A stretch of 48,732 nucleotides of DNA, taken from NCBI GenBank assembly GCA_017478105.1, contig JAFVEF010000022.1, positions 1 through 48,732 on the forward strand, in the 5' to 3' direction. Positions within the stretch are counted from its first letter, which is position 1. The number at the start of each line of letters is the position of its first letter. The stretch is from Bacilli bacterium. GTDB taxonomy: Bacteria; Bacillota_I; Bacilli_A; RF39; UBA660. The notes under the pieces are model-generated. The model was not told where the DNA came from, ran no database searches, and saw only the letters and a program-made list of their open reading frames with translations. The position numbers and the translations under genes are program-made. Below, one piece after another: positions 4,168-43,991 of this stretch.

Positions 4168-4752
4168 TTATTTATAGTATTTTTTATCTATTTTTTTACA
4201 AACAGGAACTTTTAATTGATCAGTAATAAAACTTTTATCTATAAAATATGGATGAGACATCTTGTTATAAGATATTTTACCTAAATGATCAACTCTAACA
4301 CCAGATTGATATTGTAACTCATCATATCCAAAATCTTTAGCCTCTAAAATTTTATCTAAAGAATGAAATTCAAAACCAAATTTTGCAAACATTTTTCTTC
4401 TAAACATTTCACTATCAAAATCATAATCAGCTAAATCATAAATAGAAACATTTATTGGTGAAAACATTCCAAATGGTAATGTGACACTTTTAGTATTTTT
4501 TAATGATTCTTTAGGAATAGAAGCTAAATAATCAGCAGCATCAGCTATTGATGAAACAATTTCTACTTTTAAAACTCTATCAATCATTTCTGAATCTATT
4601 AAAATATCTTTTAAAAATTCTAATTTTCGATAATATTTTAATCTGTCAACTCTTTTAGATCTTTCACTACGTAAATCTAAAAAATCACAACATTCATCAG
4701 CTTCAGATTCAAGAAATTTTATTACTTCGTCCCTATAATTAGTAAAATTCAT
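4168..4752 (-). CDS. Hypothetical soluble protein, 194 aa
   Basis: I do not recognise this protein. It is charged and has no signal peptide or membrane segment. The first half looks helical (NYRDEVIKFLESEADECCDFLDL, then RLKYYRKLEFLKDIL). The second half has 'TLPFGMFSPINVSIYDLADYDF' and a C-terminus rich in H, Y and K. Start ATG 4752 follows AGGGGG; the 13-residue longer form lacks a ribosome binding site. It is alone, transcribed away from the metK riboswitch's upstream side, with its own TGGTATAAT promoter. The 5' untranslated region is only about 20 bases and closely resembles that of the gene at 38593-39105. Confidence 0.6.
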   Translation of the reverse strand: MNFTNYRDEVIKFLESEADECCDFLDLRSERSKRVDRLKYYRKLEFLKDILIDSEMIDRVLKVEIVSSIADAADYLASIPKESLKNTKSVTLPFGMFSPINVSIYDLADYDFDSEMFRRKMFAKFGFEFHSLDKILEAKDFGYDELQYQSGVRVDHLGKISYNKMSHPYFIDKSFITDQLKVPVCKKIDKKYYK

Positions 4753-4776
4753 AACTATCCCCCTAAAACAACGTAT

Positions 4777-4805
4777 ATTATACCACATTATTTATAAAAT
4801 ATAAA
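4777..4805 (-). promoter_or_regulatory. Promoter with extended -10 for 4168-4752 gene
   Basis: TATAAT at 4777-4782 on the minus strand is preceded by TGG (an extended -10, TGnTATAAT). A weak TTTATA lies 17 bases upstream (4800-4805). The ribosome binding site begins about 12 bases after the -10. Confidence 0.65.
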
Positions 4806-14771: not shown

Positions 14772-14798
14772 AAAAAAATAGTATTTCTACTATTTTTT
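14772..14798 (-). terminator. Terminator after lepB, spanning its stop codon
   Basis: Minus-strand hairpin, arms 14775-14783 and 14788-14796 with a GAAA loop, then a T run. The lepB stop (14790-14792) is inside the arm. Confidence 0.85.
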
Positions 14799-15287
14799 AT
14801 TACCAAATCGACTAAATGGAAAAACTATTAAATTTGTTTTACCCTTTATTTGCTTTTTACTGAATTCTCCAAAGTAACGACTGTCTTTTGAATTTGTTCT
14901 GTTATCACCTAAAACAAAATAACCATTCTTTACTTTATAAGTAAAATCTTCAGTAACATCTTTTCCATATGGATCTTTAACTTGTTTACCATTTATATAC
15001 AATTTATTATTTTTATAAGATACTTCTTCTCCAGGTAAACCTATTATTCTCTTAACAATAGGTTCTCTGCCATCATCAACTACAACAATATCAAATCTTT
15101 TTACACCTTGAGTTCTAAAACCAATAATATTTAGTATCATTATATCTCCATCATGTAACGTAGAATACATACTACTACCATTTACTCTAATTGGACAAAT
15201 AACATATAATCTAATTAAAATTACAAATACTAATATAAAAACATAAGGTGTATATTCTTTAACAATTTTTTTCATTTTTGAATCCAT
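14790..15287 (-). CDS. lepB: Signal peptidase I (Ser/Lys type)
   Basis: Membrane-bound protease that removes signal peptides from secreted proteins. 165 aa. One N-terminal membrane segment (residues 14-30) is followed by the catalytic serine in 'VNGSSMYSTL' (Ser39) and the catalytic lysine in 'REPIVKRIIGLPGE' (Lys79). The C-terminal box 'NGYFVLGDNRTNSKDSRYFG' completes the family pattern. This is the bacterial Ser/Lys enzyme, unlike the Ser/His enzyme encoded at 40663-41820, so the cell has two types. It follows rplS, as in the usual Firmicutes order. Confidence 0.94.
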   Translation of the reverse strand: MDSKMKKIVKEYTPYVFILVFVILIRLYVICPIRVNGSSMYSTLHDGDIMILNIIGFRTQGVKRFDIVVVDDGREPIVKRIIGLPGEEVSYKNNKLYINGKQVKDPYGKDVTEDFTYKVKNGYFVLGDNRTNSKDSRYFGEFSKKQIKGKTNLIVFPFSRFGNKK

Positions 15288-15779: not shown

Positions 15780-15805
15780 TAAAAAAAAGCCACCTTTCAG
15801 TGACT
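15780..15805 (-). terminator. Terminator after 15804-17459 gene, touching its stop codon
   Basis: Minus-strand hairpin AGTCAC/GTGGCT (15788-15793 and 15800-15805, one G-T pair) followed by eight T. The gene's stop (15804-15806) overlaps the upstream arm. Confidence 0.75.
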
Positions 15806-17459
15806 AATCTTCTTCATAAATAATATTTGTATCATCCCAATCTGCTGGTCTACCATTAACTACACTAAATTCTTCATTAGTAATGAATCCTAAAGTCTCA
15901 CCTGAACCAATATGCATCTTAAATCCTTGAGCTTTAGTAGGCATACCACCAAACATACCACCATAAGTTTGAATGTTTTCAAAATTTGCTTTACGAATAT
16001 CTAAATCTAATAAATTAGAACAGTTATAGAACATACCATCACAATGTAATAATTCTTCAGTTATGAAACTACTTAAATTTAATGATGTAAGGCCACTACA
16101 ATTTAAAAACATTTGACTCATATCAGTAACTTTACTAGTATCAAAACTACTTAAATCAAGAGTAGTTAATTTAACATCACCATTAAACATATCTTTCATA
16201 TTAGTAGCATTCTTAACATTAGCACCTTTTAAGTTCAACTCTTCTAATTGAGCTAATCCACCAAAAGCATATTCTAAGTTAGTAGCATAAGTTGTATTTG
16301 CAGCACTTAAATTCTTCAATACTGGAGCAACTCCATCAGTTAATTCCATAACAAGTCTAGCAACATCATAATTTGAAAAATTAAAACCGTTAATATTTAA
16401 ACTAGATAAATTTGGACAGCTACCAACAATTCCTTTAAAATTAGTAACTAAATTAGTATCAAAACTACTTAAATCCAAACTATTTAAATTAGCATCTCCT
16501 CTAAACATACCTTCCATAGAAGTTGTATAAGTTGTATCTAAATTATTATTAAATGAAATTTCTTCAACAGCAGGTACTGCAAATAAACTACTTGAATTTA
16601 CAGGAGCATATATAGCATATTTACTACCAATAGTTAATAATCCATCACTAACCCAAGCTTTAACACTTCCATCACCTAATTTAGAAACATCAACTGCTCC
16701 TTCAGGTAATTCTTGAACCTTAGAAATTACAATCTTATTATAACTATCAGTAACTAAATTTTTCCAATCATTACTTAAGAAACTTGCTTTGATTTTTAAA
16801 TCAGTATCAACACTAAAATTCATAGTAGCAGCTTCTGTTGCCTTAGTTATTACTGGTAGAGATACTGCAGCAAGTAAAACTAATACTAATAAACCATTCT
16901 TTTTACGTTTATAGAATACGTAAGAAACTCCACCAATTAAACTTATAAATAATATCATGTTCATTACATTATTTGCCGTACTAGGATTAATTAAAGTATT
17001 TGGCTTATCACTTAAATCAACTCTCATACTAACATGGTTTAAAGTACTATAAGTATCATTAGCATCTAAAGCATTCGCACTTGATAATTGATTTGCATAA
17101 CTAACACGTAAATAAACTGTATTTTCTTGTCCAGCTTCTAATAAAGGATCTCCTACTTCATAATCATATTTAACATTAGAAACTTGATTATTATCCGCAA
17201 TACCATCAATATAATAATTAACATCATCAGTATTCTTTAATGTTAACTTATATTTAATATAGTCTCCAACATCATAAAAATTAACATTAGAATTAACAGT
17301 TGTTCCAGAAACACTAGCTTCACCACTTACAACTACGTTTGGACTCTTTTCAACTTCCTCAATTCCTGTTAAAACTACTCCTTCACCTTCAGCATGTACA
17401 TTATAAACAGCAAAAATTCCAACTAAAACAATAAATAATAAATAAAATCTTTTTCTCAT
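15804..17459 (-). CDS. BspA-like (DUF285) leucine-rich repeat surface protein with internal membrane hairpin
   Basis: A 551-aa surface protein with an unusual two-part plan. Residues 1-23 are a signal peptide (cut near HAEGEG). Residues of about 40-155 form a beta-sandwich with the strand 'VGDYIKYKLTLKN'. Residues of about 158-185 look like a cell-wall sorting end: 'INPSTANN', a membrane segment and 'YKRKK'. Immediately after comes a second signal-like segment (GLLVLVLLAAVSLP). Residues of about 285-525 are BspA-type LRR repeats with 'LDLSSFDTSKVTDMSQMF' units, about six in all. BspA-like repeats mediate adhesion in other bacteria. The layout suggests a fusion of two secreted proteins. Confidence 0.8.
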   Translation of the reverse strand: MRKRFYLLFIVLVGIFAVYNVHAEGEGVVLTGIEEVEKSPNVVVSGEASVSGTTVNSNVNFYDVGDYIKYKLTLKNTDDVNYYIDGIADNNQVSNVKYDYEVGDPLLEAGQENTVYLRVSYANQLSSANALDANDTYSTLNHVSMRVDLSDKPNTLINPSTANNVMNMILFISLIGGVSYVFYKRKKNGLLVLVLLAAVSLPVITKATEAATMNFSVDTDLKIKASFLSNDWKNLVTDSYNKIVISKVQELPEGAVDVSKLGDGSVKAWVSDGLLTIGSKYAIYAPVNSSSLFAVPAVEEISFNNNLDTTYTTSMEGMFRGDANLNSLDLSSFDTNLVTNFKGIVGSCPNLSSLNINGFNFSNYDVARLVMELTDGVAPVLKNLSAANTTYATNLEYAFGGLAQLEELNLKGANVKNATNMKDMFNGDVKLTTLDLSSFDTSKVTDMSQMFLNCSGLTSLNLSSFITEELLHCDGMFYNCSNLLDLDIRKANFENIQTYGGMFGGMPTKAQGFKMHIGSGETLGFITNEEFSVVNGRPADWDDTNIIYEED

Positions 17460-17574: not shown

Positions 17575-18741
17575 CTATAAATCAACCTCTTTTAATACAT
17601 ATTTATATAATTTATCTATATCTTCCACAATAAACTCACTTTTAACATCATTTACTTTAGAATAAATAATAGCTTTCTCTAAAGTCTCACTTATCTTCAA
17701 CAATTCTTCAAAAGAGTTTATTTTAATTTCTCTTCTTTTTACATTAGATTTATACCCATCTCTTGTAGTAACAATAATATTATTATATTTACCAATAATT
17801 TCCTGTAATTTTTCTTGATACTTATCTTTTTTACCAACTACTTTTTTGACAAGATAAACTGTTCTTAATAAAACAATAAATAACATAACAGTAAGTACAG
17901 AAGCAATTATTGCGCATAATGAATTATATTTATTCCATTTATTTCCTCTTATGTATAACACTTCACTCTTCTTATCAGTAATACCCTTACTAATACTAAA
18001 ATTATTATTATTATTATTTAAAGGTACAGAAAGAGAAGCTGATTTTAAACCTTCATTTCCTTGAAAAACATATAAAACAACCTCTAAAGCCCCGGTATAT
18101 ACTCCATCATGATTAGAACAATATTCTATAAATGAATCATTATATTTATTATAATCTATAGTAGTACTAAACTCTTTTTTAAAAGTCTTTCTATTATTCA
18201 TACTAGTTGAATCAGTTAATATATCATCTTCATCATTATAAATGTTTTTTCCATAAGCATCATATATATTCAAAATACTAACTATTTTATAATCCGTCTT
18301 TAAAGACCACTTTTTATCATAAGTAGATAAATAATTAAAATGAAGACTTAAACTATCAATTAAATTACTATTATAATTTAAGTTTTCTCCTAAACACTCA
18401 CTCTTATCTTTTAAACAAACTTCATATTTTACATCACTATTTTCTGTATAATGAATTTCTTGATCAACAGTAACTTTCATTGCTTGAACAGAAAAATAAC
18501 AAATTCCAAAGAATAAAAATAATATAATTCCAATAAGTACTGTAACCCTTGTCTCAAAAGAAAAATATAGTCTTTTTTTAAAACTATTATTATAAAGAGT
18601 ATTATCTATTTCTAAATTATTAGCTAACTTAGAATCACTAATCTCTTTAGAAACATCAACTACTTTATTTTCACTTTTAATACTATTTAGCTCATCCAAA
18701 GTAGTAAAATTAAACTTATTTTTTCCCTTTTTATCTTGCAT
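17575..18741 (-). CDS. DUF5305-like two-pass membrane protein
   Basis: A 388-aa protein with a cytoplasmic N-terminus, membrane segment 66-87, an outside domain 88-274, membrane segment 275-297 and a cytoplasmic domain 306-388. The outside domain opens with 'IHYTENSDVKYEVCLKDKSEC' and continues 'LIDSLSLHFNYLSTYDKKWSLKTDY'. This fits the DUF5305 pattern (Y-E-V-L-K strand, then sheet with aromatic F.Y), a family often found with signal peptidase genes. The cytoplasmic domain resembles that of the protein at 39896-40654. The start is uncertain: ATG 18741 has GGTGAG close by, ATG 18756 has a weaker site. The function of the family is unknown. Confidence 0.6.
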   Translation of the reverse strand: MQDKKGKNKFNFTTLDELNSIKSENKVVDVSKEISDSKLANNLEIDNTLYNNSFKKRLYFSFETRVTVLIGIILFLFFGICYFSVQAMKVTVDQEIHYTENSDVKYEVCLKDKSECLGENLNYNSNLIDSLSLHFNYLSTYDKKWSLKTDYKIVSILNIYDAYGKNIYNDEDDILTDSTSMNNRKTFKKEFSTTIDYNKYNDSFIEYCSNHDGVYTGALEVVLYVFQGNEGLKSASLSVPLNNNNNNFSISKGITDKKSEVLYIRGNKWNKYNSLCAIIASVLTVMLFIVLLRTVYLVKKVVGKKDKYQEKLQEIIGKYNNIIVTTRDGYKSNVKRREIKINSFEELLKISETLEKAIIYSKVNDVKSEFIVEDIDKLYKYVLKEVDL

Positions 18742-19327: not shown

Positions 19328-19783
19328 CTATAATGTTCTATTATTAGAATTAATATAATCCAAGTAACTTTCTTGTATTTCCATAAGTCTAATCATAGCT
19401 TCTTTTTTTAATTTAACTAGTTGTTTAGACATCTTTTCTAATTCTTTCTTTTTCAAATACTTACGATACTTTATTTTTATCTCTAAACGAAATTTCTCTA
19501 TTCTATTCAAAGCTTCTCTTAAACTATCACCTGTATCATCATCATCCACTAATAAATCAGTAAGTGTAAGAATAAGTTTATCATACTTTTTAAATACTTT
19601 TTTACTAACTATCGGATTAGCAAGCTTTTTATTAACTACTTCTATATCTGTAATTTCACTGTTATTTATTTTAAACCCTTTTCTCCGAGAAGCCATAATA
19701 AAACCTTCTATATTCTCTAACTGTTCTTTATCAACCAACTTATTTTTATTCTTATATTTCCTATCATTCACAATAGTATACAT
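19328..19783 (-). CDS. Coiled-coil protein of unknown function
   Basis: A 151-aa basic, soluble protein. From about residue 85 to the end it is continuous helix with a likely coiled coil (EALNRIEKFRLEIKIKYRKYLKKKELEKMSK is one continuous helical stretch by eye). The first part holds 'ENIEGFIMASRRKGFKINNSEI'. I recognise no family. AGGTGA precedes the ATG, and the gene starts 11 bases after the trmD stop, so it is co-transcribed with rimM-trmD and leads into the island of surface genes. Confidence 0.55.
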   Translation of the reverse strand: MYTIVNDRKYKNKNKLVDKEQLENIEGFIMASRRKGFKINNSEITDIEVVNKKLANPIVSKKVFKKYDKLILTLTDLLVDDDDTGDSLREALNRIEKFRLEIKIKYRKYLKKKELEKMSKQLVKLKKEAMIRLMEIQESYLDYINSNNRTL

Positions 19784-35740: not shown

Positions 35741-38512
35741 CTAATTAAATCTATATCCATAAGCACAAGTATTATGTCCCCAGCAACAAGAATTATATGT
35801 GCAATCATTCACTGTATACGAACAAGGATCCCAATAAGATGTTGTGGTTGTTATCGTCTTTCTACAACCATGACAACACTCATTACTAGAAATATATTGG
35901 TGATCACAATAGAACATATCGACACATCCGGCATAGCACTTATATCCATTATAATTAAATCCATGAGCACCAAGTGATACTATCCATATGTCATCAATAG
36001 TAGTTGTTGTATTATATTTTGTTTCCCCACGACAAGAATAAGGACTACCAGTACAACATGAACTAGCTCGACAAGTATTTTCTCCTGAATAACAACTAAT
36101 ATATGTTACACTTCTCCGGTTACTTCTCGTCAAGCCAGCATTGTTTACACAAGTTAATGAAACCGAACCTCCACTAACAGTAGTAGATACACGAGATTGT
36201 CTTACACCTGATTGGGGATCGGAACAATCAACATACGCTTCACGCTGATTATATCCAGTAGGTTTAACTGCACTTATTTCAGGAGCTGTTTTATCTATTT
36301 TAACTGTTTGGTTTGCAGGACATTTTTTTGAATTACCTGCATTATCATATACCGTTCCAGGGCTTTGATTTGTTAAATTAAATGACACATCAGGATAATA
36401 TAGCTTATATACATTACCAGCAGAATATGTAGTTTTTATTTTATTAGAATCTGAACCACTTCCATTCTTACATCCACTAGTTGCATCTGAACAAGTACCT
36501 TTTAAAGTAATATTATTAGGTGTCCAACCACCTCCACCACTTGAAGTACAATTAGGTGCCACCGTATCAACCCATATATTCGCAGGAGTAGGATATGGAG
36601 TACAATTCATCGCAACATCACATGCCTGATATGTAATTGTTGATTTACCATTAGCTTCAATATTTCTATATGTACCAACCTTGTTTTTCTCATTAGTAGT
36701 TGCTCCAGTTGTAGTATAACGATAAGAAACTTTACTTAAATTATCAGTAGAACCACTAGGAATTGTAAATACTCTATATTTACTCCATGTCCCTGGAGAA
36801 TAAGTACTTAATCCATCACTCTTATTAGGTCTTGTATCATTATTTTTCCATTTATAATATCCAATTGTTGGAGCAGTTGGTCTAGTATAATCAATATTTG
36901 CTTCTATCTTATAAACTGTTTTATTACCAGCCTTATCTTTAACAGTTAATTCACCATATCTCATACCTTCTTGAGTAAAGTATACAATCAACTTATCACT
37001 TCTGATTCCACAATTATTATGAGTCATATCAAGTCCTTGATCATAATTTTTAGAGAAACCATCAGGATTATTTACATCTACTTTTTTATAATCACCAGAA
37101 CTACTACTCTTAATATTTTTCTTATTAGTTTTCCATGTTAGAGAAGATAAATGAATACCATCAGTAACTGTTATTTCATAAGCAACTCCCTTAGGAAACT
37201 TTTCATTAAACCACCCATTTTGTAAATTAGCTTTACTATTATATGCATTATAACCAACACTTACAGTAGCATGATTTGTATTATTTGATGTTTTTATTAC
37301 ACTATCTGCAAATAATCCATCCCCTTCTTTTCCACCATCTTTTGCTTTATAAGCCTGAATAGTTACTTTAGGAGACGTTCTATCTACAAATACTTTAACT
37401 CGACAACTATTTTCCACATAATTCATGTCACATACAGAACTATTTTGTAAATAATCATCACTGATACTTTTATTACCGGCATTATCTCTTACTTGAACAT
37501 AAGCATATTCCGCTTCTTTTTGATAATCATTTGGCCAAGTCATAGCAAACTTATCACGAATACATCCACTACCTTCACCATCATTACACATCATAACAAT
37601 AGTACGTTGTTCACTTGATAAACTATTTTTATTAATCCATTCGTTAACTTCTTCCCCATTTGAATCAAGCTTACAAGTAGGAGGCGTTGTATCATGATAT
37701 ACGCCAGATTTATCTGAAGAACCATTAGTTTCATCACCTGTACTAAATATTTGTGAAGCTACACCACCTTCAGAGTTTCTTACATTAACCTTTAAAACTA
37801 ATTCAGTTGCTGTTGTAATATCAACATATTCACTTAAAGGTTTATCAATATGTAAAACTGCTTCATTATTAGCACTTAAACTTCCTGAAGAATATAGCTC
37901 CCGTTCTTCTTCATTATCTCTAACAGATATAGTAAAATTATATCCCTCAATCTTAACTTTTTTATTTTCACTACTTACTTCATCTTTTGATCCATAAATA
38001 GTAATTTTTAGTCTAGCTGAAGATACATTTTGAATAGCACCATCTTTAATAACCAAATTACTTTCATCTGAACTTGTAAATTTTGCTTCAACACGAGGTT
38101 CATTTTTTGCAGATTCACTTTCCCTCGTTTCACTACCACAATATAAATATGCAGTATATTTATAATCACTCTTAGACTTCTTTACTACTTTTACATAAGA
38201 CTCTTTCATACAAGATTCGCCTTTGCCATTCTTAATATCCGATTTCAAATAATTATTACTTCTTAAAGTACTAGCACTTACTTCATTAGATTCACCTATT
38301 TCTTTAGGTAATTCACTTCTATTTTCAGCATAATAACTTTGTGCAGCCATCAATAGCATATTCTTACTATGTGAATCAGAATCTTTTTTACTACGATTTA
38401 TAAGTCTAGTAACTGATACAATAGCAATTAAAGAAATAATACCAAGTATTAAAATTGCCCCTAATAGTTCAATCATTGAAAAACCTTTTTTATTATTCTT
38501 TACAAAGTTCAT
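35741..38512 (-). CDS. Giant type IV prepilin-like surface protein with Ig-like repeats and Cys-rich end
   Basis: A 923-aa protein beginning with a class III signal: 'KKG' then 'FSMIELLGAILILGIIS' (Gly at -1, Phe +1, Glu +5), the substrate of prepilin peptidase. Ordinary pilins and pseudopilins have about 100-170 residues. Here the helix is followed by Ig-like segments marked by 'DTTPPTC', 'VDRTSP', 'YTRPTAP', 'VDTVAPNC' and 'DKTAPEI', many ending in '(D)NAGN'. The last 115 or so residues hold about 16 cysteines, several in pairs. The form suggests an adhesin exposed on a pilus or at the membrane. No prepilin peptidase, pilus ATPase or other com genes are in the window. Confidence 0.88.
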   Translation of the reverse strand: MNFVKNNKKGFSMIELLGAILILGIISLIAIVSVTRLINRSKKDSDSHSKNMLLMAAQSYYAENRSELPKEIGESNEVSASTLRSNNYLKSDIKNGKGESCMKESYVKVVKKSKSDYKYTAYLYCGSETRESESAKNEPRVEAKFTSSDESNLVIKDGAIQNVSSARLKITIYGSKDEVSSENKKVKIEGYNFTISVRDNEEERELYSSGSLSANNEAVLHIDKPLSEYVDITTATELVLKVNVRNSEGGVASQIFSTGDETNGSSDKSGVYHDTTPPTCKLDSNGEEVNEWINKNSLSSEQRTIVMMCNDGEGSGCIRDKFAMTWPNDYQKEAEYAYVQVRDNAGNKSISDDYLQNSSVCDMNYVENSCRVKVFVDRTSPKVTIQAYKAKDGGKEGDGLFADSVIKTSNNTNHATVSVGYNAYNSKANLQNGWFNEKFPKGVAYEITVTDGIHLSSLTWKTNKKNIKSSSSGDYKKVDVNNPDGFSKNYDQGLDMTHNNCGIRSDKLIVYFTQEGMRYGELTVKDKAGNKTVYKIEANIDYTRPTAPTIGYYKWKNNDTRPNKSDGLSTYSPGTWSKYRVFTIPSGSTDNLSKVSYRYTTTGATTNEKNKVGTYRNIEANGKSTITYQACDVAMNCTPYPTPANIWVDTVAPNCTSSGGGGWTPNNITLKGTCSDATSGCKNGSGSDSNKIKTTYSAGNVYKLYYPDVSFNLTNQSPGTVYDNAGNSKKCPANQTVKIDKTAPEISAVKPTGYNQREAYVDCSDPQSGVRQSRVSTTVSGGSVSLTCVNNAGLTRSNRRSVTYISCYSGENTCRASSCCTGSPYSCRGETKYNTTTTIDDIWIVSLGAHGFNYNGYKCYAGCVDMFYCDHQYISSNECCHGCRKTITTTTSYWDPCSYTVNDCTYNSCCWGHNTCAYGYRFN

Positions 38513-38566
38513 AACATCACTCCATCTTACATATAATAATTATAAAACAAAATAATTAAAAGAACA

Positions 38567-38591
38567 ATAAAAAAAGAGTATAAAATACTCT
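38567..38591 (-). terminator. Terminator after 38593-39105 gene
   Basis: Minus-strand hairpin AGAGTAT/ATACTCT (about 38574-38591) followed by seven T. Confidence 0.75.
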
Positions 38592-38592
38592 A

Positions 38593-39105
38593 TTATTTTT
38601 GAATTAGTTTTTTCTTTTTAGAACTTTTTTTAAAATTGTTAAAACCAGTAATTTTAGAACAATAAAATTGATATAAATCATCATATTTAACTACTTGATT
38701 ATTATCAATTAAATAATTTCTAAATTCAATAAAACTTTTAAAGAAATTCTCAACATATTTGAAATTATCATTATAATTAGCATAAATAAAGCTATCATCA
38801 TTCTTGTCAAAAGAAATTGTATATGATTCTCTATATTTTCTCTTAAATGTTGCGATATGACAATACTCTTCAGGTATTTTATAATCTTCTAAAAGAAAAC
38901 CATTCATTTTTTGAATAGATTTATATAATTCTTCAGTTTTATCTTTTGGACAACAAACTAAAGAGTAATAACCATCAAGTCCTTTTTCATTTTTCAAATT
39001 AACTGGAACATAAACAGATTCCCACTCACCTTCATTATAATAAGAACATATATCCCCTGTTAATGAAGAAACATTAAAAATACTTAAACTATTTCTATCT
39101 TTCAT
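38593..39105 (-). CDS. Hypothetical protein, 170 aa
   Basis: Not recognised. Soluble, with several Y/F-rich strands ('YYSLVCCPKDKTEELYKSIQKMNGFLL', 'ESYTISFDKNDDSFIYANYND') and a very basic C-terminus (KKSSKKKKLIQK). It is a single-gene unit with a TGTTATAAT promoter, a very short leader, AGGGGGA as ribosome site and its own terminator. Promoter and leader are strikingly like those of the gene at 4168-4752, though the proteins do not look alike. Confidence 0.58.
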   Translation of the reverse strand: MKDRNSLSIFNVSSLTGDICSYYNEGEWESVYVPVNLKNEKGLDGYYSLVCCPKDKTEELYKSIQKMNGFLLEDYKIPEEYCHIATFKRKYRESYTISFDKNDDSFIYANYNDNFKYVENFFKSFIEFRNYLIDNNQVVKYDDLYQFYCSKITGFNNFKKSSKKKKLIQK

Positions 39106-39127
39106 AATATCCCCCTAAACACGACAT

Positions 39128-39136
39128 ATTATAACA
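39128..39136 (-). promoter_or_regulatory. Extended -10 promoter of 38593-39105 gene
   Basis: The minus strand has TGTTATAAT (39128-39136), about 12 bases before the AGGGGGA ribosome site. No convincing -35. Confidence 0.6.
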
Positions 39137-39159
39137 TAAATACTATAAAAATTCAATTG

Positions 39160-39843
39160 CTATTTACATATGTCAATAAAATAATCTATTATTTTTTTTG
39201 AATTCTCATCAAAATCATAACTTATTTCAGGATGCCATTGTATCCCTAATACAAATTTTTTATTCTTCATCCACATAGCTTCAATATATCCATCACTAGA
39301 TTTACAACATACATCAAAATAGTCATTTGAGCTAACATGAAATCTATGAAAACTATTAACCATAATAGATTCTTTTTTAAGAATATCATATAATAAAGAA
39401 TCTTTTTTAATTACTACCTCATGAGACAATAAATCATCTGATTCTTGAAAATGATTAATATCTGTACCATTAGGATAAACTTTAAAATCATCCTTGTAAC
39501 AACTCATTAATTGCATTCCAAGACATATTCCAAGAGTCGGTATATCTCTTTTAATACATTCCTCAAGTAAATACTTATCAAAAGGAGTTATCTTAAATCC
39601 ACCTGGAAAAATTACCCCATCTACCATATTTAGATATTTATCAATATTTTTTTTATCTTCCTCTGATAATTCATTAAATTCATTATACCTAGTATCAGAA
39701 TAAAAAACATCCTGAACTTGAACAATAGGTATAATAAATCCTCCTGCTTTTTGAATCGTTCTTCTAATACGTTCCCCTAAATATAAAATAGGTCTTCCAT
39801 CATTCAAATGACTATATTTCAAAGGAATACCAATAATACACAT
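39160..39843 (-). CDS. Class I glutamine-amidotransferase-like hydrolase (peptidase C26, PuuD-like)
   Basis: A 227-aa cytoplasmic hydrolase. 'DGVIFPGGFKI' is the oxyanion region, 'PTLGICLGMQLMS' has the nucleophilic Cys, 'VNSFHRFHV' is the C26 'NSxHxQ' block (here NSFHRFH), and 'VLGIQWHPEIS' has the catalytic His and Glu. The family cleaves gamma-glutamyl bonds, as in gamma-glutamyl-GABA hydrolase; the substrate here is unknown. AGGTGG precedes the ATG, and a TGATATAAT promoter lies at 39860-39868. Confidence 0.88.
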   Translation of the reverse strand: MCIIGIPLKYSHLNDGRPILYLGERIRRTIQKAGGFIIPIVQVQDVFYSDTRYNEFNELSEEDKKNIDKYLNMVDGVIFPGGFKITPFDKYLLEECIKRDIPTLGICLGMQLMSCYKDDFKVYPNGTDINHFQESDDLLSHEVVIKKDSLLYDILKKESIMVNSFHRFHVSSNDYFDVCCKSSDGYIEAMWMKNKKFVLGIQWHPEISYDFDENSKKIIDYFIDICK

Positions 39844-39867
39844 AAAACCACCTAGAATTATTATATC

Positions 39868-39897
39868 AAAAAAAAATATGTCCTAAACATATTTTTT
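39868..39897 (-). terminator. Terminator after 39896-40654 gene, touching its stop codon
   Basis: Minus-strand hairpin with eleven-base arms AAAAAATATGT/ACATATTTTTT (39871-39881 and 39887-39897) and a T tail. The stop (39896-39898) overlaps the arm. Confidence 0.88.
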
Positions 39898-40654
39898 ATA
39901 AAATCTCAGAATCAACATTAGAAGAAATAGAACTAACTTCAGGAGTTTGAACATCTTCAGTAGTTTCTACCTCTTTTGAAGTATCATCAAAAACTTCATT
40001 ACTTGTATTGGAAATATCTGATTTTATCTCATCATTTTCTTTTTCAGCAGAAGATACTTCTTGCTTATTTTGAAGCTCATCTAATTTCCTAATAGGAGAT
40101 ACTTTATAACTTTTCTTATTAGATAACTTAACAATAGTTGTTCTTTCAATATCCCTTAACATTTCAGCATCCATCTCTTCAATGTTTTTACCACGTATTC
40201 TAGATTCTCTAATCTCTATTTCAATCGGAGATGTTACATCATCATTAACTTTTTCAACATAAACATAAGCTTCTTTTTCATCTAAAAGTACAAATGAACA
40301 AGATTCAGTTTGTTTTAAATAACAAATAGGTTTACGTATTTCTAATTGAGCATCTACTAAATCATCAATTGTTTCAACTAGTATTACATTTTTACCATCT
40401 AATCTAGGAACACTACTACTCTTAACTAAAATAGAATCATAAGTATTTAAAATTCTTTTTACAGTAGATTCATATACTTTAACAGGATCATTTCCATATA
40501 TGAAATTACCTATCCCAAATACAGCTAATACAAAAGCTACAGTAAATAAGAATATCGCATATTCCATTAGTGATTTATTTATTAAGATAACTCCAATTAT
40601 AATACATAGAAGAGATAATCCTAAAAATATAATACCCTTTAAATTCTTTTTCAT
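39896..40654 (-). CDS. Two-pass membrane protein sharing the cytoplasmic domain of the DUF5305-like protein
   Basis: A 252-aa protein: membrane segments 7-25 and 31-53, then a cytoplasmic domain of about 58-136, then a long acidic, S/T-rich tail. The domain ('YESTVKRILNTYDSILV', 'ETIDDLVDAQ', 'KPICYL', 'SFVLLDEKEAYVYVEKV') lines up with residues 306-388 of the protein at 17575-18741 ('YQEKLQEIIGKYNNIIV', 'NSFEELLKIS', 'KAIIYS', 'EFIVEDIDKLYKYVLK'). The outside domain of that protein is missing here. It follows the SipW-type peptidase by eight bases, so it probably acts with it. Function unknown. Confidence 0.6.
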   Translation of the reverse strand: MKKNLKGIIFLGLSLLCIIIGVILINKSLMEYAIFLFTVAFVLAVFGIGNFIYGNDPVKVYESTVKRILNTYDSILVKSSSVPRLDGKNVILVETIDDLVDAQLEIRKPICYLKQTESCSFVLLDEKEAYVYVEKVNDDVTSPIEIEIRESRIRGKNIEEMDAEMLRDIERTTIVKLSNKKSYKVSPIRKLDELQNKQEVSSAEKENDEIKSDISNTSNEVFDDTSKEVETTEDVQTPEVSSISSNVDSEIL

Positions 40655-40662
40655 AAAAACAC

Positions 40663-41820
40663 CTACCTCTTTTTAAACATCTCGCTCAACCAAATAGTTG
40701 GATATGCAATAAATGGAACTCTAAGTTTAATTACACCTTTTACATGATCTCTAGGAACTATATAATTATCAGCACCATTATTCGCATCACCCTTTGTTAA
40801 GTAAGCTTCTTTATTTTTATATGTCTGCAATTCATGAATTCTATGAACAATAGTTATTTTATCTTCCTTATATGCAATAATATCCCCAACTTTAAGCTTT
40901 GTATTCTTATTAATCTTTTTAATAATAACAGCATCGCCTCTATTTATATTAGGACTCATTGAACTAGATCCAATACCAATCATATAATGAGGGAAAAATC
41001 CAGATATTAAAGCTGCAAGTGTAACAATAACTATTGTAGTTGGTATATCTAATATACTAAATTGATAAGTTTCAAATACATGTTCAACTTTATGAGTTCT
41101 TTCATCGACCAAAGTAAAACAATGAATATAAATTAATAATGGTAATGCAATAAGTATCATTGAATTTAAATACTCACCAATATTAGGTAATATAGGAACA
41201 ATAATAAAATAAGTATCCATAACCAATCTATAAATAAGTGGTACTCTATATCCAGAATGATAACATAAATAAGACATTACAAGATTCTTTATAATTACAG
41301 GCAATATAATAGTTGCAAAAAGTGAAAATACAGATGCAAGACTACTATAATCAACACTACGCGCTGTAATCATTATTTCAAAAAAAGCTAAAAGTAATGA
41401 AAATAATACTAAAAATATTTTTTTATCTCTATTTGCCCAAATAACTACATATCTTATTCCTTCAACAAATAGAATTACCATGACAGGTGCAAATAAATTA
41501 TCAAACAGTGTAGTAAAAGACCTTGAATAAGCGTTTCTTAAAAATCCAATAATGAAACCAAGCCCATACATTATTAAAAAGGCAAGTCCCAAGTACAACA
41601 CTACTACACGCAATAAATTTTGGCTCATATAGCCTATTTTATCTTTTCTAATTCCTAGTAAAATTATTGATAATCCAAATACAACCACTAAAAAAGAAGC
41701 TGTAATTAGACTTGAATATTTCATAAAATTACTAAAAATAAAGAATTTATAGACTAGTGTATATGCCAAAATTAAAAAACATATTAAATAATTTTTTAAC
41801 ATTCTTTTACTTTTAAACAT
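40663..41820 (-). CDS. sipW: SipW-type (Ser/His) signal peptidase I with multi-pass N-terminus
   Basis: A 385-aa membrane protease of the ER/archaeal kind. The last 104 residues are the catalytic domain: 'GSSSMSPNINRGDAVIIKK' with the serine (Ser287), 'KLKVGDIIAYKE', 'ITIVHRIHEL' with histidine (His326) in place of the bacterial lysine, and 'YLTKGDANNGAD'. Before it lie about 270 residues with some seven or eight membrane segments, far more than in Bacillus SipW. SipW enzymes process TasA-family proteins; such a gene lies directly upstream. ATG 41820 after AGAGGG is the better start. Hairpins at 41840-41925 lie ahead of it. The symbol is by type only. Confidence 0.88.
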   Translation of the reverse strand: MFKSKRMLKNYLICFLILAYTLVYKFFIFSNFMKYSSLITASFLVVVFGLSIILLGIRKDKIGYMSQNLLRVVVLYLGLAFLIMYGLGFIIGFLRNAYSRSFTTLFDNLFAPVMVILFVEGIRYVVIWANRDKKIFLVLFSLLLAFFEIMITARSVDYSSLASVFSLFATIILPVIIKNLVMSYLCYHSGYRVPLIYRLVMDTYFIIVPILPNIGEYLNSMILIALPLLIYIHCFTLVDERTHKVEHVFETYQFSILDIPTTIVIVTLAALISGFFPHYMIGIGSSSMSPNINRGDAVIIKKINKNTKLKVGDIIAYKEDKITIVHRIHELQTYKNKEAYLTKGDANNGADNYIVPRDHVKGVIKLRVPFIAYPTIWLSEMFKKR

Positions 41821-41839
41821 AAATACCCTCTTACTTATT

Positions 41840-41925
41840 CTTTGTAATTTTATATGCCTACTATCTAAATAATAAACATATAAAATTACAAAGTAACTAC
41901 CAAATTGGTAGCTTACTTCGTAATT
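41840..41925 (-). promoter_or_regulatory. Two mutually exclusive hairpins between tasA-like and sipW-like genes
   Basis: On the minus strand segment B (about 41877-41901) can pair upstream with A (41907-41925), forming an 18-bp stem with one flaw followed by TAATTTTATATG. It can also pair downstream with C (41840-41856), where CATATAAAATTACAAAG is a perfect 17-base match. C lies just before the sipW ribosome site. The layout resembles an attenuator or a stability element. Confidence 0.7.
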
Positions 41926-41936
41926 ATTCTTTTTAA

Positions 41937-42482
41937 TTATGCTTGAACATAGTTCATTGAGCAAGTTAAATTTAAAGTTTCTGGTTCTTCAGGTAATTGA
42001 CTAGCATCAATATCTCTCTTAAATTCAACTCTAACTTTATATTTTTTAGTAGCACCACCGTGAGCAAGAGAATCATTTACTGCAGGAGCAGTATTATCTG
42101 CATAAGTAACAGTATAATTAACATAGTTAGCTTGAGTACTACTAACTCCACTAATTGTTGGAACAGCGCCTAATTTAGCATCAATTCCCCCAGCATTTTC
42201 AACATCAACAGTAAATTCAAAGAAATCACCAGGTTGATTTAAAGTAATAGCATAAGAAATATTTAAATTATCTGCTGCTATTGTTGGAGCTGTAGTAGGA
42301 GTAACACTACCTGTAGTTGTAGCAATACTGTCAGCCTTAAATCTAACATTCCATGATGCACTATTAATAGTAGAAGTACCAGTTATGTTTAAAGTTGAAC
42401 TTAAAGCTGCATAACCAACTGTAACTCCTAATAATAATAACAATAATACTAAAACACTTATACTCTTCTTTCTCTTTTTCAT
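41937..42482 (-). CDS. TasA/camelysin-like secreted protein with SipW-type signal peptide
   Basis: A 181-aa protein. Its signal region is typical of SipW substrates: a basic start, 'SISVLVLLLLLLGVTVGYAALSSTLNITG', with a cut after GYA and the 'TLNITG' strand following directly. The mature part is all-beta: 'ASWNVRFK', 'PGDFFEFTVDVENAGGIDAKL', 'YVNYTVTYAD', 'KKYKVRVEFKRD', and a C-terminal 'LNLTCSMNYVQ'. TasA proteins build extracellular fibres and camelysin is a related surface protein; fibre formation here is not shown. ATG 42482 has AAAGG nine bases ahead. A strong promoter precedes it and sipW follows. Confidence 0.85.
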   Translation of the reverse strand: MKKRKKSISVLVLLLLLLGVTVGYAALSSTLNITGTSTINSASWNVRFKADSIATTTGSVTPTTAPTIAADNLNISYAITLNQPGDFFEFTVDVENAGGIDAKLGAVPTISGVSSTQANYVNYTVTYADNTAPAVNDSLAHGGATKKYKVRVEFKRDIDASQLPEEPETLNLTCSMNYVQA

Positions 42483-42527
42483 TATTTCCATCCTTTCTTA
42501 AGACACTTTTTTCTATCTTATAAAAAA

Positions 42528-42556
42528 ATTATAATAAACTTATTAAACAATTGCAA
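42528..42556 (-). promoter_or_regulatory. Promoter of the tasA-like/sipW-like operon
   Basis: The minus strand has TTGCAA (42551-42556), a 17-base spacer and TATAAT (42528-42533). The leader is about 40 bases long. Confidence 0.8.
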
Positions 42557-42587
42557 TAGATAAAACAACTTTTTTTGTCTAAATGTA

Positions 42588-42619
42588 AATAAAAAGTGTA
42601 ATATAGTTATTACACTTTT
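42588..42619 (-). terminator. Terminator after glyS
   Basis: Minus-strand hairpin with perfect twelve-base arms (42592-42603 and 42608-42619), a four-base loop and a T-rich tail, directly after the glyS stop. Confidence 0.92.
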
Positions 42620-42620
42620 A

Positions 42621-43991
42621 TTAAAAACTAATTTTTTCTTCTATATATTTTACTACATCCTCAATTTTTAAAGTTATTTGTTCCATAGTATCACGATCAC
42701 GTATTGTAACTACACCATCATTCAAAGTATTATCATCTACCGTAATACAAAAAGGTGTTCCACAAGCATCTGCTCTTCTATAGCGTTTTCCAATACTTCC
42801 ACTTTCATCATAACTTGACATAAAATACTTTGAAAAATAATTATATAATTCACTAGCTTTTTCTGAATGATATTTCTTTTGTAAAGGTAAAACACATACT
42901 TTATAAGGAGCTAAATAAGGATGAAATTTCATAATTTCACGACTCTCCCCATTTTCAAGTTCTTCTTCACAGTATGAATTATCTAGAATTGCAAGTACTA
43001 ATCTGTCACAACCAACAGTAGATTCAATAATATAAGGAATATACTTCTCATTTGTAACAGGGTCAAGATACATTTGAGAAACACCAGAATATTCTTGGTG
43101 TCTACTCAAATCATAATCTGTTCTATTATGAGTACCATTTATTTCTCCCCATCCAAAATTAAATTGATATTCTATATCACAAGCTTCTTTAGCATAATGA
43201 GCTAATTTTTCATGATCATGATATCTAAGTTTACTTTCAGGTATTCCTAAATCAACAAAATATTTTTTCGCATATTCTTTAAAATAAGCATATAATTCAC
43301 TATCTGTACCCTCTTTACAGAAAGTTTGATATTCCATTTGTTCAAACTCAATTGTACGGAATGTAAAATTACCAGGAGTTATTTCATTACGAAATGCCTT
43401 TCCAATTTGTCCTATACTAAAAGGTAGTTTTGCACGCATTGTTCTTTGAACATTTAAAAAATTAACATACTCACCTTGAGCATTTTCTGGTCTCAAATAA
43501 ACCTTATTTTTACCATCTTCGACTACTCCTCTATGAGTTTCAAACATTAAATTAAACTGTCTAATATCAGTAAAATCACATGATCCACACTTAGGGCAAG
43601 GAACTTTTTTCTCTTTTATATAATTTAACATTTCTTCTTGTGTCATACCATCAGCATGACTATTAGGATCATATTCTTCAATTAAATTATCGACACGATA
43701 ACGAGATTTACAATGACGACAATCTATTAAAGGATCAGAAAAACTACCAACATGACCAGAAGCTTCCCATACTCTAGGATGCATCAATATAGCTGCATCA
43801 ACCTCATAAGCATTACTTCTTTCTTGAATAAATCTTTTTCTCCAAGAATCCTTAATATTATTTTTTAACCTACTTCCTAAAGGACCATAATCCCAAGTAT
43901 TCGCAAGACCTCCATATATTTCACTACCTTGAAAAATAAATCCATATTGTTTACAATAATTTACTAATTTTTCCATCGTTAACTTTTCCAT
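42621..43991 (-). CDS. glyS: Glycyl-tRNA synthetase, single-chain dimeric type
   Basis: Charges tRNA-Gly. At 456 aa it is the alpha2 enzyme found in many Gram-positives, archaea and eukaryotes, not the alpha2-beta2 glyQS form. 'KQYGFIFQGSEIYGGLANTWDYGPLG' opens the catalytic core. 'CRHCKSRYRV' and 'CPKCGSCDF' supply zinc-type cysteines. 'KVYLRPENAQGEYVNF' is motif 2 and 'VGCDRLVLAIL' motif 3. The C-terminal anticodon domain includes 'VCVLPLQKK' and 'RRADACGTPFCITVDD'. AAGGAGG precedes the ATG. Regulated by the short T-box upstream. Confidence 0.97.
   Translation of the reverse strand: MEKLTMEKLVNYCKQYGFIFQGSEIYGGLANTWDYGPLGSRLKNNIKDSWRKRFIQERSNAYEVDAAILMHPRVWEASGHVGSFSDPLIDCRHCKSRYRVDNLIEEYDPNSHADGMTQEEMLNYIKEKKVPCPKCGSCDFTDIRQFNLMFETHRGVVEDGKNKVYLRPENAQGEYVNFLNVQRTMRAKLPFSIGQIGKAFRNEITPGNFTFRTIEFEQMEYQTFCKEGTDSELYAYFKEYAKKYFVDLGIPESKLRYHDHEKLAHYAKEACDIEYQFNFGWGEINGTHNRTDYDLSRHQEYSGVSQMYLDPVTNEKYIPYIIESTVGCDRLVLAILDNSYCEEELENGESREIMKFHPYLAPYKVCVLPLQKKYHSEKASELYNYFSKYFMSSYDESGSIGKRYRRADACGTPFCITVDDNTLNDGVVTIRDRDTMEQITLKIEDVVKYIEEKISF

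Follow-up and report, generated by a model that had tools for sequence, protein, structure and literature searches.

Background

In eukaryotes, the relative of the Ser/His signal peptidase works in a four-subunit complex, in which SPCS3 is a lumenal beta-sandwich subunit and which also has transmembrane-hairpin subunits with cytosolic domains; the prokaryotic Ser/His enzymes, to our knowledge, are taken to consist of one subunit. In the tapA-sipW-tasA operon of Bacillus subtilis, the gene of the SipW peptidase is located beside that of TasA (PMC9674648). Here we analysed a stretch of 48,732 nt from the genome of a Bacilli bacterium (contig JAFVEF010000022.1, assembly GCA_017478105.1; hereafter the window), which contains a cassette that likewise pairs a SipW-type Ser/His peptidase with a TasA-like exported protein. 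Unlike tapA-sipW-tasA, this cassette is without TapA, its peptidase has an extra membrane domain, and a DUF5305 protein has been added. In a PDB search, the TasA-like genes match AbpX and not TasA, and AbpX of the archaeal bundling pili (AbpA/AbpX) is the best solved match of the Bacilli TasA-like profile. With the taf clusters of Haloferax, which belong to the haloarchaeal Tat-fimbriae (tafi), it has DUF5305 and a signal peptidase (in the taf clusters, signal peptidase I) in common.

DUF5305 is catalogued as Pfam entry PF17231, which records no function for the family shared with the 252-aa protein of the cassette. We found no functional description of DUF5305 in the open-access literature; the original taf and Abp papers lie outside that scope, and a mention of DUF5305 among the fimbria genes may already be contained in them. 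Both the link of DUF5305 to signal peptidases and a variant of the family without ectodomain appear to be undescribed in the accessible literature. The features of the window on which our analysis is based are compiled in Table 1.

Table 1. Location and properties of the features discussed in the text (positions refer to the window)
Feature	Position	Strand	Properties
Short DUF5305 protein, 252 aa	39896..40654	-	TM hairpin, cytoplasmic alpha/beta domain, genus-specific conserved segment, variable acidic tail
Two membrane helices of 252-aa protein	40496..40642 (about residues 5-26, 30-53)	-	predicted N-in/C-in hairpin, few residues outside
Shared cytoplasmic domain, 252-aa protein	40247..40486 (about residues 57-136)	-	alpha-beta-beta-alpha-beta-beta-beta
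C-terminal acidic/hydrophobic peptide DSEIL	39899..39913	-	family consensus [DE]x[VI]E[VIL][LI]
Multi-TM Ser/His signal peptidase, SipW/Sec11 type, 385 aa	40663..41820	-	from ATG 41820 (most likely start)
Catalytic codons of the peptidase	Ser 40960-40962, His 40843-40845	-	
RNA hairpin, attenuator-like	41884..41925	-	between TasA-like and peptidase genes; MFE -22.1 kcal/mol, z -5.3
TasA-like/AbpX-like exported subunit, 184 aa	41937..42491	-	SipW-type signal region; conserved in cassette
Long DUF5305 protein, 388-395 aa	17575..18762	-	cytoplasmic N-tail, TM1, beta-sandwich ectodomain, TM2, cytoplasmic domain
Shared cytoplasmic domain, 395-aa protein	about 17578-17826	-	same domain as in 252-aa protein
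TasA-like protein, 157 aa	18838..19311	-	upstream of long DUF5305; E 7e-8 with a profile trained without this protein
551-aa protein	15804..17459	-	downstream of long DUF5305; weak TasA-like segment (E 1e-3), PARCEL/DUF285 repeats (DUF285 E 3e-25)
151-aa protein, helical, predicted cytoplasmic	19328..19783	-	directly after trmD, upstream of long DUF5305

Results and discussion

Two DUF5305 proteins with a common C-terminal domain

The ORFs of the 252-aa and the 395-aa protein are both real and are located on the minus strand of the window. A sequence-only reading had proposed, from a motif alignment made by eye, that the two proteins share a homologous domain; this alignment is correct (YESTVKRILNTYDSILV / YQEKLQEIIGKYNNIIV, and so on). 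BLASTP found no significant match between the two proteins over the relevant region, a Smith-Waterman alignment of the two domains scored above all 2000 shuffles (z 5.4), and phmmer gave a domain E-value of about 0.002 in a set of four sequences. Two full-length paralogs encoded in the same genome (397 aa, G000:C59; 449 aa, G000:C53) link both proteins. The 252-aa protein matches their C-terminal parts in BLASTP, with E-values of 6e-9 to 2e-5, depending on the direction, for the C59 paralog and of 5e-7 for the C53 paralog; the 395-aa protein matches the former over 360 residues and thus nearly its full length (5e-31) and the latter at 1e-9. Because these paralogs bridge the two domains, and because the alignments of short and long forms match each other with an hhalign probability of 99.3 (E 9.5e-21), homology as claimed previously can be considered established. 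The direct pairwise evidence is weak; the transitive evidence and the strong similarity of the profiles are decisive for this conclusion from sequence comparison.

The 252-aa protein matches positions 116-217 of the 217 positions of PF17231 (E 3.6e-12) and with 46.6 bits exceeds the curated cut-off of 29; the full-length architecture, which includes profile positions 1-115, is not present. Compared with the full model, the short form thus consists of the C-terminal half only and is without ectodomain. Searched alone against Pfam, the 395-aa protein does not match PF17231 and joins the family through its paralogs and the profiles; among the 36 aligned long forms, 30 match PF17231 at an E-value of 0.01 or better. 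The Pfam cut-off is thus reached by the 252-aa protein and not by the 395-aa protein formerly described as DUF5305-like. The 252-aa protein is a truncated DUF5305 variant, and the shared domain is the C-terminal part of DUF5305. It is thus already catalogued and not new, contrary to the earlier view of an undescribed domain.

Architecture and topology

The AlphaFold model of the 252-aa protein (without Met1) contains two adjacent helices (H4-25 and H29-52), and this hairpin is followed by the domain at high confidence (pLDDT 94-97 for most blocks), by a helix modelled with declining confidence and by a tail without order. For the long form (395 aa; mean pLDDT 82.6) the model consists of a disordered N-tail, TM1, a beta-sandwich of about 170 residues, TM2 and the elements H-E-E-H-E-E-E, whose order after the second membrane helix is identical in both models. 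The arrangement of the long form is the one architecture of the family. The two helices are separated by a median of 8 residues in short forms versus 199 in long forms. In both forms, enrichment of Lys and Arg on the N-terminal side of TM1 and the C-terminal side of TM2 indicates that both protein ends are most likely cytoplasmic; the location of the shared domain in the cytoplasm, assumed previously, is thus supported by the positive-inside rule. One DUF5305 protein with a C-terminal fusion to MshEN, a regulatory domain of the cytoplasm, points to the same topology. An observation to be considered here is a DUF5305 protein (L169 3489-6188, genome G109) with DUF285 repeats C-terminal to the domain called cytoplasmic, which could be a fusion, could have arisen in the assembly or could call the topology into question.

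Foldseek searches of the cytoplasmic domain against the PDB yielded nothing at an E-value of 0.001 or better. VIA-align matches to chains of the histidine kinase DesK (Z up to 8.0, rmsd 5.3, 123 aligned) mostly reflect the membrane hairpin, and we therefore assign no fold to this domain. For the ectodomain, VIA-align ranked RbmA, a scaffold protein of biofilms, first, with a Z of 8.6 that is only middling (rmsd 2.5 over 105 aligned residues). Specific relatives of the ectodomain (RbmA, transglutaminase, ASF1, GH2; Z 7-8.6) were rejected, as the fold is a generic Ig-like sandwich.

Pairing with a membrane-enlarged signal peptidase

The peptidase of the cassette matches TIGR02228 (E 3.2e-24; 85.6 bits, cut-off 51.85), and together with its Ser/His dyad this places it in S26B (Ser/His, SipW/Sec11). 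Ser335-Met336, His374-Arg375 and Asp residues (numbering of the 433-aa ORF) are invariant, and the peptidase profile also matches human SEC11C (E 3.6e-18); with the SipW equivalog NF046067 the protein reaches 57.8 bits, below the cut-off of 190. The ORF as called begins with TTG at 41964 and overlaps the TasA-like gene (41937-41964). The true start is most likely the ATG listed in Table 1, which follows GAGGG and is consistent with the relatives.

We surveyed the neighbourhoods of 101 DUF5305-domain genes in 100 fetched regions, in which genes were called by iterated local profiles. An enlarged Sec11/SipW-type peptidase gene is located directly upstream and on the same strand at 69 of the 101 genes, with a median gap of 6 nt between peptidase and DUF5305 genes. 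Within three genes of DUF5305, a peptidase match is found in 84/101 cases, a count that takes in the ordinary LepB genes of the trmD-rplS context, and a TasA-like gene in 80/101. Among the matches listed in the genus, 68 of 71 TIGR02228 peptidases of at least 360 aa are encoded within 2.5 kb of DUF5305, in contrast to 2 of 73 peptidases shorter than 360 aa (Fisher 1.6e-34, which overstates independence, as the genomes are related and the counts non-independent). The check proposed by the sequence-only reading, whether the domain occurs beside Ser/His peptidases and TasA-like genes, is thus strongly positive, and the neighbourhoods support its suggestion that both domains belong to one system with these genes.

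With a probability of roughly one half, we infer that DUF5305 interacts with a dedicated Ser/His peptidase as its accessory subunit in the maturation of TasA/AbpX-like fibre proteins. The membrane and cytoplasmic parts of DUF5305 would dock on the enlarged membrane domain of the peptidase, which would make the cytoplasmic domain the obligate part for coupling; its role in coupling or sensing, as proposed previously, remains inferential. In dedicated operons, the probable task of the ectodomain is to retain freshly cleaved subunits until they are assembled into the fibre. The form without ectodomain would pair with a peptidase whose substrates are numerous dispersed TasA-domain proteins, for which no dedicated assembly site would be needed. 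The adjacency of DUF5305 and peptidase genes can alternatively mean shared regulation. This is also part of a possible, though rather doubtful, explanation according to which DUF5305 is a TapA-like anchor or nucleator of the fibre, whose ectodomain closes off the TasA-like filament at its base through donor-strand complementation, whose C-terminal domain merely anchors the protein, and whose proximity to the peptidase reflects co-regulation. The beta-sandwich ectodomain with a scaffold protein as its best match (RbmA, at the middling Z of 8.6) and the many TasA-like genes flanking DUF5305 are consistent with such an anchor, but it leaves unexplained why the cytoplasmic domain stays when the ectodomain is lost, and why DUF5305 is paired near-exclusively with the membrane-enlarged enzyme and not with SipW-like peptidases in general.

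The long copy at the trmD locus

The gene of the 395-aa protein is located in the context of a trmD-rplS housekeeping operon. Long copies linked to trmD form a clade (support 99/87) and, the copy of the window included, are mostly without an enlarged peptidase next door. A peptidase encoded at 14790-15287 near the long copy was rejected as evidence for the system, because the gene order identifies it as an ordinary LepB-type enzyme after rplS. For the 395-aa copy, the neighbour that would point to membership in the system is thus only the TasA-like one. The earlier statement that each DUF5305 gene adjoins a TasA-like gene is correct for the 252-aa gene in that the 184-aa gene belongs to the same cassette, with the peptidase gene in between; for the 395-aa gene it is correct for the upstream 157-aa gene, and marginal for the downstream 551-aa gene. 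The 151-aa protein is kept in 15 trmD-linked loci, including the window. The cytoplasmic N-tails of the trmD-linked DUF5305 proteins contain a conserved KFNFVTxDE stretch (KFNFTTLDEL in the window, about 18650-18740).

Origin and conservation of the short form

In the domain tree, 22 short forms constitute a single clade (support 100/95; the two divergent short forms L057 and L058 are unplaced), which is nested among long forms adjoining peptidases. This indicates that the short form arose by loss of the ectodomain, and a single loss would be the simplest history consistent with the tree. DUF5305 is present in all 36 genomes of the genus to which the window belongs, and 20 of 296 genomes sampled from the class, mostly from other genera of the same family, exceed the Pfam cut-off; the form without ectodomain was found in the genus of the window only. 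Among the named relatives, MAGs from rumen and intestine predominate, with the labels Bacilli, Erysipelotrichaceae or Bacillales; the contig scan that yielded them was seeded with the short-form alignment, and the long forms are poor in conserved stretches.

The short-form cassette follows glyS in most species (gene identity by eye). Of the divergent short forms, L058 is located between glyS and other genes with no peptidase in reach, and L057 at a contig end and not beside a peptidase. Short forms have 37 invariant residues and an added conserved segment (KTTIVKLSNKKSYKVSPIRK), and their C-terminus ends in a short peptide, whose strict core [VIL]E[VIL][LI] occurs within the last 15 residues of 18 of 24 short forms, compared with 1.0 expected from shuffles; the DSEIL ending of the window copy is a variant that misses this core. 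One might regard the short form as a decaying, non-functional remnant of the long form, as the whole ectodomain has been lost. This is very improbable and largely refuted by conservation: the gene is intact in about 20 species, the invariant residues and the additional segment have been retained, the C-terminal peptide is conserved beyond a variable linker, and the position after glyS is nearly constant.

TasA-like proteins and dispersed candidate substrates

A profile of 39 upstream genes, which takes in the 157-aa copy of the window, matches AbpX (archaeal bundling protein X) in the PDB (E 4e-4). With the curated TasA and TapA models, one of the 39 TasA-like neighbours reaches TIGR04087 (TapA; E 0.006), and none matches the other models at E 0.01. 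The hairpin between the TasA-like and the peptidase gene is the only terminator-like site in the region 38500-42750, and at 27 of 40 loci the equivalent gap likewise folds, with z values below -2. Its position between the two genes would allow synthesis of the substrate in excess.

The genome of the window contains 44 matches to the TasA-like profile. Twenty dispersed TasA-like proteins show a median of 42% identity and 125 bits with the 184-aa protein of the cassette, far more than with the TasA-like proteins of long cassettes (18-40 bits). Matching TasA-like proteins number a median of 11 per genome in the core short-form clade versus 0 in the other genomes (p 9e-5; the genomes are related and the counts non-independent). 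Exceptions are G027, with 25 such proteins and no short form found (the genome is 86% complete), and G007, in which the short form is present and no such protein was found. This suggests that surface proteins encoded at dispersed sites are processed by the short-form cassette.

One of the dispersed genes is the target of a diversity-generating retroelement (L219, G000:C21:14000-21500; template 4277-4406, variable copy about 4648-4777). The 3' end of the gene of the TasA-domain protein L198 (C21:17800-20300) differs from the 130-bp template at 18 sites, 17 of which are template adenines. Beside it are an Avd-like ORF of 133 aa and a reverse transcriptase whose coding sequence is distributed over two frames. 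Of the other dispersed TasA-domain proteins, about a dozen have tails that vary in a similar way (WWLRSA...GVSPAFRI or ...CSVSGL...CDW). Another reverse transcriptase (RVT_1, E 1e-19; L218, G000:C25:22921-23595) is encoded at a contig end, next to a small ORF and to a protein of 765 aa that has a SipW-type signal region. In addition, the window encodes a 923-aa protein (35741-38512) whose N-terminus (GFSMIELLGAILILGIISLIAIVSV) is like that of type IV pilins and whose extracellular part is long.

DUF5305 in haloarchaea and a possible role in sensing

Annotated DUF5305 proteins are encoded on six haloarchaeal plasmids. On four of these, the gene of a signal peptidase I adjoins DUF5305 or lies at a distance of one gene; on two Haloferax plasmids, DUF5305 and signal peptidase I are located at opposite ends of a TafE/TafF cluster. 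The Haloferax clusters are Tat-fimbria (taf) genes, and the cluster of H. larsenii, the one scanned, also contains TafA and TafC. The haloarchaeal and Bacilli DUF5305 profiles align over the ectodomain and the C-terminal domain (E 1.2e-7). A DUF5305 match on a contig of 59% GC in a Bacilli bin (L145), which may be a misbinned archaeal contig, served solely as a search query and as a member of the haloarchaeal alignment. Unlike the Haloferax plasmids, the genome of the window has no tafi cluster as judged by TafE, for which no match was found, and profile comparison revealed no similarity between Taf proteins and the TasA-like proteins of Bacilli.

In some haloarchaeal loci, DUF5305 adjoins response-regulator, STAS or HTH genes. 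In a single Bacilli genome from outside the taxonomic family of the window (G237), a protein (L146 4837-6774) combines DUF5305 with a C-terminal MshEN domain (E 7e-10). MshEN is a cytoplasmic regulatory domain that binds c-di-GMP (PMC5013675); in the G237 protein, the RLG arginines of the motif described there are replaced in both motifs. The fusion might represent a nucleotide-sensing version of DUF5305. These observations, together with the conserved C-terminal peptide of the short forms and the KFNFVT-like N-terminal stretch of the trmD-linked long forms, would fit a transmembrane sensor, whose ectodomain reads the state of the envelope or fibre and whose cytoplasmic domain or tails pass this information to the cell interior by means of the conserved short peptides or of fused regulatory domains; the short form would then be a signalling stub. 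We consider such a sensor unlikely, as DUF5305 is without kinase, cyclase or other output domain, the MshEN fusion was seen once and with altered motifs, and no regulator gene is found consistently near DUF5305 in Bacilli.

Comparison with the eukaryotic signal peptidase complex

The catalytic subunit of the eukaryotic signal peptidase complex (Sec11, SPCS1, SPCS2, SPCS3; PMC13385932) is Sec11-like, as is the peptidase of the window. SPCS3 and the transmembrane-hairpin subunits together resemble the long and short DUF5305 proteins, a likeness of topology only: profile searches of PDB sequences listed no homology to SPCS1-3 at E-values up to 10, and no sequence link of DUF5305 to known peptidase-complex subunits was found. 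Extending the proposed role as accessory subunit, we tentatively suggest that DUF5305 might be the prokaryotic counterpart of an accessory subunit of the signal peptidase complex, that Bacilli and haloarchaea might thus have a multi-subunit enzyme, and that the short version might be a general exporter-processor for TasA-domain surface proteins, at least one of which is diversified by a retroelement.

Conclusions

As a family of unknown function that is paired almost exclusively with the membrane-enlarged peptidase, and this in two domains of life, DUF5305 is a concrete candidate partner of this enzyme. The natural loss of the ectodomain tells which half of DUF5305 is indispensable, and the haloarchaeal copies are found in genetically tractable hosts, in which the role of the family is directly testable.
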